A DNA stretch of 64,000 bases from Mycolicibacterium chubuense (lineage in GTDB: Bacteria; Actinomycetota; Actinomycetes; Mycobacteriales; Mycobacteriaceae): positions 140,951-204,950 of the forward strand of contig NZ_JYNX01000060.1 in the NCBI RefSeq assembly GCF_001044255.1, given 5' to 3'. Positions within the stretch are counted from its first letter, which is position 1. Each line of letters opens with the position of its first letter. This document shows, one piece after another, positions 3,889 to 13,263 of the stretch. Position numbers and translations under genes: made by a program. Below the pieces are notes generated by a model. That model saw nothing but the letters and a program-made list of their open reading frames with translations. It made no database searches and was not told the DNA's origin.

Positions 3889-3990
3889 ATGACCGATCGA
3901 GGACATCGGCACAGTATCCCGCCGCACGCGGTGATTGCTTACGCAAAGACGTGGCGGGACAGTCGTTCTCGCGTGGAGCCGGCACGATGA
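3889..3990 (+). CDS. 33-residue leader ORF of the GlnX-GlnH-PknG operon
   Basis: An ATG at 3889 follows a very strong Shine-Dalgarno (GAGGGAGGG, 3875-3883) with 5-base spacing, and opens a 33-residue frame beginning MTDRGHRHSIPP. Its TGA (3988-3990) overlaps the ATG of the GlnX-like gene (3987) in an ATGA arrangement, so translation of the two is probably coupled. The peptide is basic, with several His and Arg and no membrane segment. I recognise no family. GlnX itself has no good ribosome-binding site other than the one serving this ORF, which supports real translation. It could be a regulatory leader or a small functional peptide. Confidence 0.55.
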   Translation: MTDRGHRHSIPPHAVIAYAKTWRDSRSRVEPAR

Positions 3991-5258
3991 GCGTCGCGTT
4001 GGTTCACACCCGGGGCTTGCCGTCCTCCCGGGTCCCGAGACTACGGCGCTTCGCCCGCACGACCCCGGGACTCGTCATCGCCGTCACGCTCGTGCTCGTC
4101 GCGTCGTGCGCAGGCGCCGCGGTGGTGTGCGCCGCCGGGCTCCATCAACGAATAGCCGCGCACGACAACGTGCTTGGGTACTCGGAGCCTTTTGCGTTCG
4201 CGGCGCAGAACCTCTACGCGGCGCTGTCGGAGGCCGATGCCACCGCCGCGTCGGCCTTCCTGTCGGGCGGGATCCAGACACCGGCGATGCGCGAACGGTA
4301 CAACGAAGCCGTCGCCGCGGCCGCGTCCGCGCTGGGGGATGTGTCCGCCGGGGCCACCGACATGGGCGTGCGGACCGCGGTCGCCGAGATCACGGTGCAG
4401 TTGGCGACCTACACCGGTCTGATCGAGGCCGCCCGGGCCAACAACATGCGCAACTCGCCCGTCGGCTCGGCGTACATGCGGGAAGCGTCCTCGCTCATGC
4501 AAACCGGACTGCTCCCGGGCGCCAGGCAGATCCTGGACCGCGGCCTCGACGCGCTCGACGCCGAGCAGGCGTCGGTGGGTGCGCGCCCCGTGGTCGAGAT
4601 CGTGCTGCTGGCCCTCATCGTCGCAGAGATCGTGGCCGCGTCCTGGATGCTGCTGCGCCGGACGAACCGCCAGTTCAACATCGGACTCGTCGTTGCAGCA
4701 GGCGTCCTGGTCCTGGCGATCGTCTTCCTCGTCGTCGCCACGCGTCTGGCGGCTGGCGACATCGATCGCGGCCGGGCGGTCGGTACCGAACGCTTCGAAC
4801 ACCTCGCGGCGGCACGAATTCTCGCCCAGCAGGCACGCACCGAGGAGACACTGGAACTGATCGCGCGCGGCGACATCACCTCTTTCGAGGAGAAGTACGC
4901 AGGCGACATCCGCGGACTGCTGACCGAATTGGAGGCGGGTCCACAGTCCGCGGTGGACGCGGTGCACCGCTGGACCGCAAGCCATGACAAGCAGGTGCGC
5001 GCCTACCGCGACGGCGACTTCGCCACCGCGATGGCGCAGGCGATCGGCGCCGATCCCGAAGCCTCCCCCGCTCAGTTCGGGGTCGTCGAAACCGGATTGC
5101 GCGCCGAGATCGAGACGACCCGCACCGCCATGCGTGCGATGGTGTCGTCGGCGGGTGCCGCCCTGGCCTGGACCCCGCCGGTGGTCGTGGTGTCGGCGGC
5201 GCTGGCCGCGGCCGCGGTGATCGCGGGGATGTGGCCGCGCCTGAAGGAGTTCCTGTGA
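3987..5258 (+). CDS. glnX: GlnX-like integral membrane sensor protein (Rv0412c family)
   Basis: The 423-residue protein has four predicted membrane helices: near residues 25-50, one after ARPVVEIVLL, one around VLVLAIVFLVVAT, and one near the C-terminus. Two extracytoplasmic alpha-helical domains lie between helix pairs, like the sensor parts of chemoreceptors and kinases. Position directly before glnH and pknG matches M. tuberculosis Rv0412c, where GlnX and GlnH relay dicarboxylic amino-acid availability to PknG. The ATG at 3987 is chosen over the longer frame from 3951 because it overlaps the leader ORF stop. It overlaps glnH by four bases (GTGA). Function is inferred mainly from gene order and topology. 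Confidence 0.8.
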   Translation: MSVALVHTRGLPSSRVPRLRRFARTTPGLVIAVTLVLVASCAGAAVVCAAGLHQRIAAHDNVLGYSEPFAFAAQNLYAALSEADATAASAFLSGGIQTPAMRERYNEAVAAAASALGDVSAGATDMGVRTAVAEITVQLATYTGLIEAARANNMRNSPVGSAYMREASSLMQTGLLPGARQILDRGLDALDAEQASVGARPVVEIVLLALIVAEIVAASWMLLRRTNRQFNIGLVVAAGVLVLAIVFLVVATRLAAGDIDRGRAVGTERFEHLAAARILAQQARTEETLELIARGDITSFEEKYAGDIRGLLTELEAGPQSAVDAVHRWTASHDKQVRAYRDGDFATAMAQAIGADPEASPAQFGVVETGLRAEIETTRTAMRAMVSSAGAALAWTPPVVVVSAALAAAAVIAGMWPRLKEFL

Positions 5259-11701: not shown

Positions 11702-13263
11702 CGACACCGAACGTCGCCGAGCGCACACTGTCCGAGCTCGACGAGGACGAACGCTACCGGCGTTTCGACGAACTCCAGCGGGCGATGCCGTCGGTGTGGG
11801 AGTCGATACGCCTCGACATGCCCGACGAAACGGTCGTCGTCGTGCCGTCGATCAGCCTGGCATCGACGTCGGGCAGTGGCACGGCGATGCAGGCTCTCGA
11901 GGAGCGGTCGCTGTTCCTGCTCCTGTTGTTGCGCCAGTCCAGACTGCAGATGATCTACGTGACCTCACAGCCGATCGCCGAACCGATCGTCGAGTACTAC
12001 CTGGGATTGCTGCCCGGCGTCATCCCCAGCCATGCCCGCCGACGGCTGACGCTGATCTCGGTCAACGACGCGACACCGGTGCCGTTGAGCGCGAAGCTGC
12101 TGAAGCGGCCGAAGTTGTTGCGGCAGATCAGATCCCTGCTGCCCAACCGGGCGCGCAGCCACCTGATCCCGTACAACACGACCACGCTCGAGCGCGATGT
12201 CGCTCTGTCCCTGGGCATTCCGATGTACGGCGCCGATCCGCGACTCGCCGACCTCGGAAGCAAGACGGGGTGCCGGAGACTGTTCGACGAGCTCGGGGTC
12301 CGATGCCCGGTCGGAGCCGAGAACCTGCACACCGTCGACGACATCGTCGCCGGTGTGCAGGGCATGCGGACGCGGCGCCCGACGTTGACGTACGCGATCG
12401 TGAAACTCAACGAGGGTGTCTCCGGAGCCGGCAACGCGATGGTCGACCTCCGCAACCTGCCTTCTCCGGGTTCGCCCGACGAGGCGGCGGCGATCACCGA
12501 CCGCATCCTCTCGCTGCGGCCCGAGTCCGAGAACCTTTCCGTCGAGACGTATCTGACGGCCTTCCGGACACACGGGGGGATCGTCGAGGAACGCATCAGC
12601 GGCGTCACGCTGACGAGTCCGAGCGTCCAGATGCGGGCGCTGCCCGACGGTTCGGTCGAATTGCTGTCCACCCACGACCAGATGCTCGGCGGCGCCAGCG
12701 GTCAGCGCTACCTCGGCTGCATCTTTCCGGCGGACTCCCACTACGCTGCGGCCATCGCCGAGCCCGCGATGGTGATCGGGCGTCGCCTCGCCGGCCTGGG
12801 TGTGCTGGGCAGGTTCGCCGTCGATTTCGTCGTCGTGCAGGGTGAAGACGGCATGTGGACGCCCTACGCGATCGAGCTGAACCTCCGTAAGGGCGGCACC
12901 ACCCATCCGTTCCTGACCCTGCAGTTCCTGACCGACGGCAGCTACGACGGCGAGCGGGGAGTGTTCGTCACCCCGCACGGCAGCCCGAAGTACCTCGTCG
13001 CCACCGACCATCTCGAAGACGAACGCCTGAAGGCGCTCACCAGCGTCGACCTCTTCGACATCGTCGTCACGCACGGACTGCACTTCGACCAGGCCCGCAG
13101 GACCGGTGTGGTGTTCCACATGATCAGCTGCCTCACCGAGCTGGGCCGATTGGGCATGACCGCGGTGGGCGACAGTCCGGAGGAGGCGAGAAGCATCTAT
13201 CAGAGGGCGGAAGCGGTCCTGTTCGAGGAGTCCGAGGCGGCGCTCGAGGAGATGGCGATCTGA
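11698..13263 (+). CDS. PGM1-like ATP-grasp peptide ligase (carboxylate-amine ligase)
   Basis: The ATG at 11698 overlaps the cyclase stop (ATGA) after an AGAAGGGGAG site, giving 521 residues. The N-terminal third (VVVVPSISLASTSGSG, then SPQPI-like Rossmann elements) resembles the pre-ATP-grasp domain of PGM1-type enzymes. The central part has an ATP-grasp glycine loop (KLNEGVSGAGNAMV). The signature AIELNLRKGGTTHPFLTLQF near residues 390-410 is characteristic of that ligase group. Family members form peptide bonds between small carboxylates and amino acids or peptides. No other biosynthetic gene is near, so its product could be a signalling molecule or modifier for this pathway. Which acid and which amine it joins cannot be read from the sequence. 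Confidence 0.75.
   Translation: MTTPNVAERTLSELDEDERYRRFDELQRAMPSVWESIRLDMPDETVVVVPSISLASTSGSGTAMQALEERSLFLLLLLRQSRLQMIYVTSQPIAEPIVEYYLGLLPGVIPSHARRRLTLISVNDATPVPLSAKLLKRPKLLRQIRSLLPNRARSHLIPYNTTTLERDVALSLGIPMYGADPRLADLGSKTGCRRLFDELGVRCPVGAENLHTVDDIVAGVQGMRTRRPTLTYAIVKLNEGVSGAGNAMVDLRNLPSPGSPDEAAAITDRILSLRPESENLSVETYLTAFRTHGGIVEERISGVTLTSPSVQMRALPDGSVELLSTHDQMLGGASGQRYLGCIFPADSHYAAAIAEPAMVIGRRLAGLGVLGRFAVDFVVVQGEDGMWTPYAIELNLRKGGTTHPFLTLQFLTDGSYDGERGVFVTPHGSPKYLVATDHLEDERLKALTSVDLFDIVVTHGLHFDQARRTGVVFHMISCLTELGRLGMTAVGDSPEEARSIYQRAEAVLFEESEAALEEMAI

Follow-up and report, generated by a model that had tools for sequence, protein, structure and literature searches.

The window analysed here is a 64,000-nucleotide stretch of contig C60 of a 5.9 Mb Mycolicibacterium genome (designated G000), whose closest named relative, as judged by the ligase described below, is Mycolicibacterium chlorophenolicum (90% identity). 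Between positions 3889 and 13263, the window carries six large genes in the order glnX, glnH, pknG, a GAF hybrid histidine kinase (HK) gene, a REC–cyclase gene, and an ATP-grasp ligase gene, preceded by a 33-codon leader open reading frame (ORF). The operon and a tendency of its parts towards joint inheritance in the genus suggest a possible single nutrient-response pathway. The features of the locus, with positions in the window, are as follows.

3889..3990, + strand: 33-codon leader ORF with an ATGA overlap with glnX; the same length and overlap occur in L012, L116, and L117
3987..5258, + strand: glnX paralogue, membrane signal transducer (NF058618, 354.8 bits; cut-off 250)
5255..6217, + strand: glnH paralogue, solute-binding lipoprotein and predicted Asp/Glu binder (SBP_bac_3; nearest solved chain 6h1u)
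6217..8343, + strand: pknG2, Ser/Thr kinase (PknG_rubred, Pkinase, and PknG_TPR of Pfam)
8340..10571, + strand: hybrid histidine kinase, GAF-GAF-HisKA-HATPase-REC (Pfam)
10568..11701, + strand: REC–class III nucleotide cyclase (Response_reg and Guanylate_cyc)
11698..13263, + strand: ATP-grasp carboxylate–amine ligase of the BesA/PGM1 type (PGM1_C; model nearest to BesA 8yi6)
3801..3814, no strand: palindrome AGTAGT-GC-ACTACT between the LuxR gene and glnX, conserved in relatives, candidate operator
1065..3701, − strand: LuxR-type regulator with an AAA domain, divergent from the operon, candidate regulator (GerE above its cut-off, AAA_16 below)

As read from the sequence, each junction overlaps by 1–4 bases. 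The leader ORF and the glnX start share ATGA at 3987, the glnX stop and the glnH start share GTGA at 5255, and the glnH stop and the pknG start have 1 base in common in TGATG at 6215. The pknG/HK and HK/cyclase junctions are GTGA at 8340 and 10568, the cyclase/ligase junction is ATGA at 11698, and the ligase stops at 13263. An initial annotation made from the sequence alone had the limits of the cluster and these overlaps right at every junction; of the seven genes that it counted, six are large, and we take the seventh to be the leader ORF. No ORF of the length and sequence of the leader was found in 17 other loci scanned; short ORFs of other kinds lie close to potential glnX starts in six of them. 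Because none was found there, this ORF more probably serves as a leader or in translational coupling than as a protein of the pathway.

PknG is encoded three times in the genome. Contig C36 carries the canonical copy, accompanied by a GlnX and a GlnH of its own, and a third set (L140), also with GlnX and GlnH, is located on C60 around 261521–263425, approximately 114 kb from the copy in the window. With the canonical copy on C36 and the third elsewhere on C60, we rejected the reading of this locus as a canonical PknG operon extended by further genes. In a PknG tree, the copy in the window falls in a clade of 34 sequences (support 100/100) apart from canonical PknGs; L163, which was chosen by a crude rule, and L140 are on long branches in this tree, and their placement is unsure. 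The PknG of the window is a paralogue, designated as PknG2, present beside the canonical copy. The GlnX–GlnH–PknG module named in the initial annotation is borne out by its domains and by the GlnX family match, but it is a paralogous set and not the canonical locus.

PknG2 keeps the rubredoxin–kinase–TPR domain order, and its alignment to 2pzi contains the stretches VVLKG, YCDFKP, and LIDLG, which we take to hold the active-site Lys and Asp positions. The catalytic loop YCDFKPDN and a CX4C first knuckle are found in the window, in linked relatives, and in most other clade members, whereas canonical L139 and 2pzi have a CX2C first knuckle and the loop YNDLKPEN. The loop of L132 reads YSDFKPDN. 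The CX4C first knuckle appears in the window and throughout the 17 linked rows of the alignment (two of which, L025 and L134, are the same locus), and none of these has the canonical CX2C/CX2C pattern; no CX4C was found in four rows that are unlinked (L167, L168, L170, and L182). GlnX falls short of the cut-off of the stricter equivalog NF041460 (208.4 of 780 bits). The closest solved chain to GlnH is M. tuberculosis GlnH (6h1u, E 1.1e-92). Among the Asp/Glu-contact residues listed in PMC6069109, R147, T162, S164, R169, W232, and D250 are kept in an alignment to 6h1u counted by eye, and the water-mediated contact K161 is R in the copy of the window.

For the comparison of genomes, GlnX–GlnH–PknG2 is designated as block A and HK–(REC)–cyclase–ligase as block B, the receiver being optional. 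Among 396 genomes of the genus, drawn evenly from a larger group, 24 possess a close ligase (a 25th match, in G212 with 29% identity, was left out), and 16 of these 24 carry GlnX–GlnH–PknG2 upstream on the same strand. The gene order thus extends beyond one strain, with L123 lacking the cyclase and retaining only a partial HK. Four of the 16 linked loci are compact (the window, L116, L117, and L134 of M. vaccae), and 12 have PP2C and VWA genes in between (L119, L120, L122, L123, L126–L130, L132, L133, and L135), with an FHA gene in all but L135. The longer form of block A reads GlnX–GlnH–F8–PknG2–PP2C–VWA–FHA. F8, encoded between glnH and pknG2, is a family of approximately 375 amino acids (e.g., L026:271-1407) with no Pfam or NCBIfam match.

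The exact compact order of six genes occurs at five loci (the window, L012, L116, L117, and the M. vaccae locus, which is represented twice with an identical ligase as L025 and L134). Beyond the window, it is carried by M. chlorophenolicum and M. vaccae as well as by two further genomes, and the five loci occupy two separate places of the ligase tree. Because L025 groups with L024 and L135, both of which retain PP2C and VWA, loss of the middle genes probably occurred on two or more occasions, leaving the same six genes each time, as far as the tree indicates. Two further ligase loci are cut by assembly: in L124 a contig ends before PP2C–VWA–FHA–HK–cyclase–ligase, the PknG2 of this genome being on a second contig, 498 bases from its end, while in G065 the contig ends at the ligase. 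Six ligase loci are unlinked (L118, L121, L125, L131, L136, and L137). As for spacing, the blocks of L119 and L120 are separated by a LuxR gene and a small ORF. Elsewhere among the linked loci, the HK follows at an estimated distance of −5 to 125 bases, its start being estimated from the alignment.

PknG2 is present in 35 of the 396 genomes, comprising 22 of the 24 ligase genomes and 13 of the 372 others (Fisher 5e-25, a value inflated by kinship since ligases and PknG2 each form one clade and related genomes are each counted). Five of the six unlinked genomes carry PknG2 elsewhere: no block B gene is present in the fetched block A regions of G090, G258, G293, and G390, and G419, whose ligase is of another lineage, has a lone HK after FHA. 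Of the 13 PknG2 genomes in which the ligase was not found, 12 were fetched (all but G008). Four of them (L172, L173, L178, and L179) have the kinase HKb directly after FHA, and HKb follows the ligase in L019, L021, L026, and L030. The sequence of L183 (genome G094, 73% complete) ends inside the HK, and the other seven fetched genomes have no HK, cyclase, or ligase after FHA. Linked and unlinked rows are intermixed in the PknG2 tree, indicating repeated loss or gain of block B. The ligase is nearly always accompanied by PknG2 but not the reverse, as expected if block A feeds block B, although shared ancestry could have the same effect. This co-occurrence supports a coupling of the two blocks in which the PknG2 half is able to stand alone.

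Outside the genus, we scanned species-level genomes for the ligase and kept the best 80 of 135 relatives as loci. A quick ligase tree separates a clade of 56 rows from a second of 33 rows (Shimodaira–Hasegawa-like approximate likelihood ratio test, SH-aLRT, 100), the latter from Verrucomicrobiota, Chloroflexota, and others, including some Actinomycetota. Among the best 80, 47 loci belong to the first clade; the cyclase is directly upstream of the ligase in 44 (missing in L015 at a contig end, L023, and L063). An HK is upstream in 41, being missing at contig ends in L015, L039, L044, and L046, absent from L063, and represented at that place only by a fragment in L028, which has an HK on the opposite strand. 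A stand-alone receiver separates HK and cyclase in 29 of the 47, though not in compact L012 and L025. In the 33 other loci, a cyclase match within 4 kb was found once, on the opposite strand. Since cyclase and HK adjoin most first-clade ligases and a cyclase hardly ever the others, HK–(REC)–cyclase–ligase is a separate cassette of Actinomycetota. Although found in many members of that phylum, it is not a common one: of 296 genomes sampled from the class, 10 have a close cyclase, counting that of the window. Ligases without a kinase–cyclase pair nearby are those of L053, L056, L057, L059, L062, and L064–L091 (Verrucomicrobiota, Chloroflexota, and others), with 53–58% identity to that of the window; judged by these alignments, the ligase is strongly conserved across the Verrucomicrobiota and Chloroflexota copies.

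Within block B, His 390 of the HK is kept in 39 of 39 rows. The initial annotation had described a phosphorelay; the hybrid HK and the REC–cyclase are present, but a phosphorelay in the strict sense is not supported, as there is no HPt match among the six operon proteins in Pfam, the rest of the genome not having been searched for one. Direct phosphotransfer from HK to the cyclase receiver is possible. In six loci (L016, L017, L019, L021, L026, and L030), the acceptor Asp of the HK's own receiver is replaced by Glu, a change that may mimic phosphorylation. In the cyclase, Asp 56, Asp 194, Asp 238, Asn 314, and Arg 318 are conserved in 43 of 43 rows; we take Asp 194 and Asp 238 to bind metal and Asn 314 and Arg 318 to act on the transition state. 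Class III adenylate cyclases select adenine by Lys and Asp/Thr. At the corresponding purine-selecting positions, the 43 rows have R (38) or H (5) and A (32), S (10), or T (1). The nearest solved cyclase domain is CyaB (3r5g). The protein is therefore a class III cyclase with the metal and transition-state residues in place, but the label "adenylate" given to it initially is unproven, because the usual purine-selecting residues are replaced.

The ligase scores 55.5 bits with PGM1_C (cut-off 22.5), remains below the PreAtp-grasp cut-off (21.5 of 27.5), and falls short of the BesA equivalog NF042917 (128.8 of 750 bits). Structure searches were based on AlphaFold2 models, with a mean predicted local distance difference test (pLDDT) score of 88.8 for the ligase. 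The fold predicted for it is nearest to BesA (8yi6, template-modelling scores of 0.74/0.84, 26% identity), followed by PGM1 (3wvq and 3wvr) and the Streptomyces peptide ligases 8ynd. K189, K236, D376, E393, N395, and R397 are the same residues in BesA in alignments inspected by eye. The "peptide ligase" of the initial annotation, correct as to an ATP-grasp enzyme with PGM1_C, is most plausibly a BesA-like amino-acid ligase, possibly a γ-glutamyl one. In some relatives, though not in the window, a gene for a putative γ-glutamylcyclotransferase-fold protein lies downstream of the ligase; its model (mean pLDDT 93.9) matched that fold. In a profile match with an overall E of 0.031, a Glu invariant in 20 rows fell on position 98, which in human GGCT is the catalytic Glu (E98), although the match is weak in that segment.

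The following scheme builds on gene order, co-occurrence, the conservation of the catalytic and ligand residues named above, and the predicted ligase and cyclotransferase folds. Periplasmic Asp/Glu bound by GlnH would signal through GlnX and activate cytoplasmic PknG2, as in the canonical module. The GAF hybrid HK would phosphorylate the receiver of the class III cyclase, and the cyclic nucleotide would be read by a receptor, for which the CRP-type neighbour in some non-mycobacterial genomes is a candidate. The ligase would couple an amino-acid carboxylate, proposed to be the γ-carboxyl of glutamate, to an amine. PknG2 would modulate block B, with PP2C and FHA partners as intermediaries in loci that have them, so that external Asp/Glu would govern the cyclic-nucleotide level and the synthesis of a γ-glutamyl-type compound, which the γ-glutamylcyclotransferase-fold protein would remove in genomes having one. 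We infer the activation of PknG2 by GlnX, the action of PknG2 on block B, the ligase substrate, and the cyclic nucleotide with its reader. We know of no substrate linking PknG2 to the HK or the cyclase.

That external Asp/Glu sets the output of block B through PknG2 in one pathway is, in our view, the best single reading of these data, held tentatively and at somewhat less than even odds. The complete circuit, in which GlnH–GlnX–PknG2 would act on a two-component cyclase and a ligase-made γ-glutamyl-type signal or store would have a cyclotransferase-fold eraser and a CRP-type reader, both encoded alongside in relatives, is a good deal more doubtful and on balance quite unlikely. If true, it would constitute a writer–eraser pair for a γ-glutamyl messenger controlled jointly by Ser/Thr, His-Asp, and cyclic-nucleotide signals. 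HK, cyclase, and ligase are direct candidates for new PknG-type targets, and in the operon Ser/Thr, His-Asp, and cyclic-nucleotide signalling may come together.

Several observations weigh against one pathway. With regard to the proteins, the HK carries its own GAF inputs, and a PknG site common to block B proteins was not seen in the comparison, which covered only HK N-termini. A basic, Ser/Thr-rich HK tail (ERTSRTSR type) before the first GAF, a candidate Ser/Thr kinase site by its composition, is found in L013, L014, L016, L017, L019, and L027 and is absent in the window. The overlaps leave no room for PP2C, VWA, and FHA in the operon of the window; a VWA gene moved elsewhere was not detected in its genome at E 1e-40, in a search that covered neither PP2C nor FHA. 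The cyclotransferase gene was not found in this genome either, a weak negative since none of the 10 genomes searched was a known positive. Of the seven loci among the best 80 with a CRP-type regulator next to the cassette, none is mycobacterial. With regard to distribution, G231 has the ligase without PknG2, three of the 13 ligase-less PknG2 genomes are only 70–80% complete, and several loci have their blocks an estimated 30–165 bases apart, two of them also parted by the LuxR gene, so that separate promoters are possible there. The single pathway that the initial annotation had drawn from amino acid to second messenger is accordingly an interpretation that goes beyond the genome comparison: no ligase was detected in 13 of 35 PknG2 genomes, and block B occurs without PknG in other Actinomycetota, namely Kribbella, Nocardioides, Cellulomonas, and Microbacterium.

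The last two facts equally favour separate circuits on a shared transcript, an explanation that we rank second and consider possible, though less probable than one pathway. One condition, such as the arrival of amino acids in soil, would call for both blocks; PknG2 would phosphorylate targets of its own (GarA or a different FHA protein), and nothing but its GAF domains would drive the HK–cyclase pair. That the longer block A encodes an FHA protein and that the estimated FHA-to-HK gaps are 95–125 bases in several loci fit this explanation, but the co-occurrence of PknG2 and ligase holds even when the blocks are unlinked, and two lineages without the middle genes have nonetheless retained the six.

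It is unlikely that the two blocks merely hitch-hike, that is, that both belong to the accessory pool of large-genome soil mycobacteria, were joined once, and share ancestry or niche without forming a pathway. The main-type mycobacterial ligases do form one clade of 24 rows and PknG2 another, and both blocks are patchy (24 and 35 of 396 genomes). Yet the blocks stay joined in 16 genomes while their neighbours (SpoIIE, HKb, cyclotransferase, and LuxR) vary, PknG2 and ligase in those genomes being 64–85% and 72–92% identical to those of the window, and the association is one-sided, from ligase to PknG2. Least probable of all is a PGM1-like specialised-metabolite or peptide-tailoring ligase whose production the cyclase and kinases merely regulate: PGM1_C is above its cut-off and the PGM1 and 8ynd folds rank after BesA, but BesA is clearly nearer, no other operon gene looks biosynthetic, and the 54–58% identity to the aligned Verrucomicrobiota and Chloroflexota copies fits a common substrate.

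REC–class III cyclases driven by histidine kinases are a known kind. The cyclase of the operon resembles them in its receiver and cyclase domain and in its invariant metal and transition-state residues, but differs in having R/H and A/S at the purine-selecting positions and an ATP-grasp ligase as its usual neighbour. The ligase shares its fold over most of its length with BesA, an L-propargylglycine–L-glutamate ligase, and with PGM1, but it is encoded among signalling genes. PknG loci with VWA also occur in other families of the order (G040, G047, and G060), where PknG and VWA likewise lie within approximately 1 kb on one strand; unlike these, the PknG2 block of the genus precedes HK and ligase in 16 genomes, and the operon of the window lacks PP2C, VWA, and FHA. 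According to two reports, the GlnX–GlnH–PknG module is known from M. tuberculosis, M. smegmatis, and C. glutamicum, with GarA/OdhI as the known targets of PknG, a kinase that has received much study (PMC6069109, PMC9769921). The block of the window is similar to this module in its three genes, their order, the GlnH contact residues, and the rubredoxin–kinase–TPR architecture, but it is a paralogous set with the CX4C knuckle and YCDFKPDN loop, and it overlaps the HK, cyclase, and ligase genes. We found no description of the operon or of its rear cassette in the portions of the open-licence literature covered by our search, in agreement with the initial annotation, which knew of none.

The intergenic region between the LuxR gene and glnX is 285 bases long and holds the palindrome at 3801–3814. 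Its 19-base stretch is identical in L012, L116, and L117 and has one mismatch in L127; a variant that is itself palindromic occurs in L171, weaker forms in L123 and L135, and none is clear in L133. Base-shuffled windows gave 0.05 such 12-mers (at most one mismatch) per 64 kb, and five near matches elsewhere in the fetched loci are all at other positions. No Rfam match at gathering scores was found in 3600–18100. In 3600–13700, sigma-70-like promoters (none found, 0.5 expected) and terminators (three found, 2.7 expected) were scanned for with methods that say little for mycobacteria. L012, L013, L014, L023, and L027 each have a LuxR homologue in the neighbourhood of the cassette or of the PknG2 block, as is also the case in L116, L117, L119, L120, L122, L123, L127, L131, L133, and L135.

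Downstream of the operon, at 14897–17996 on the + strand, the window encodes a SpoIIE-type phosphatase, a B12-binding protein, and a STAS protein in a row, which from their domains resembles a partner-switch whose sensor binds cobalamin. This trio also follows the cassette in L012, and SpoIIE does so in L116 and L117.

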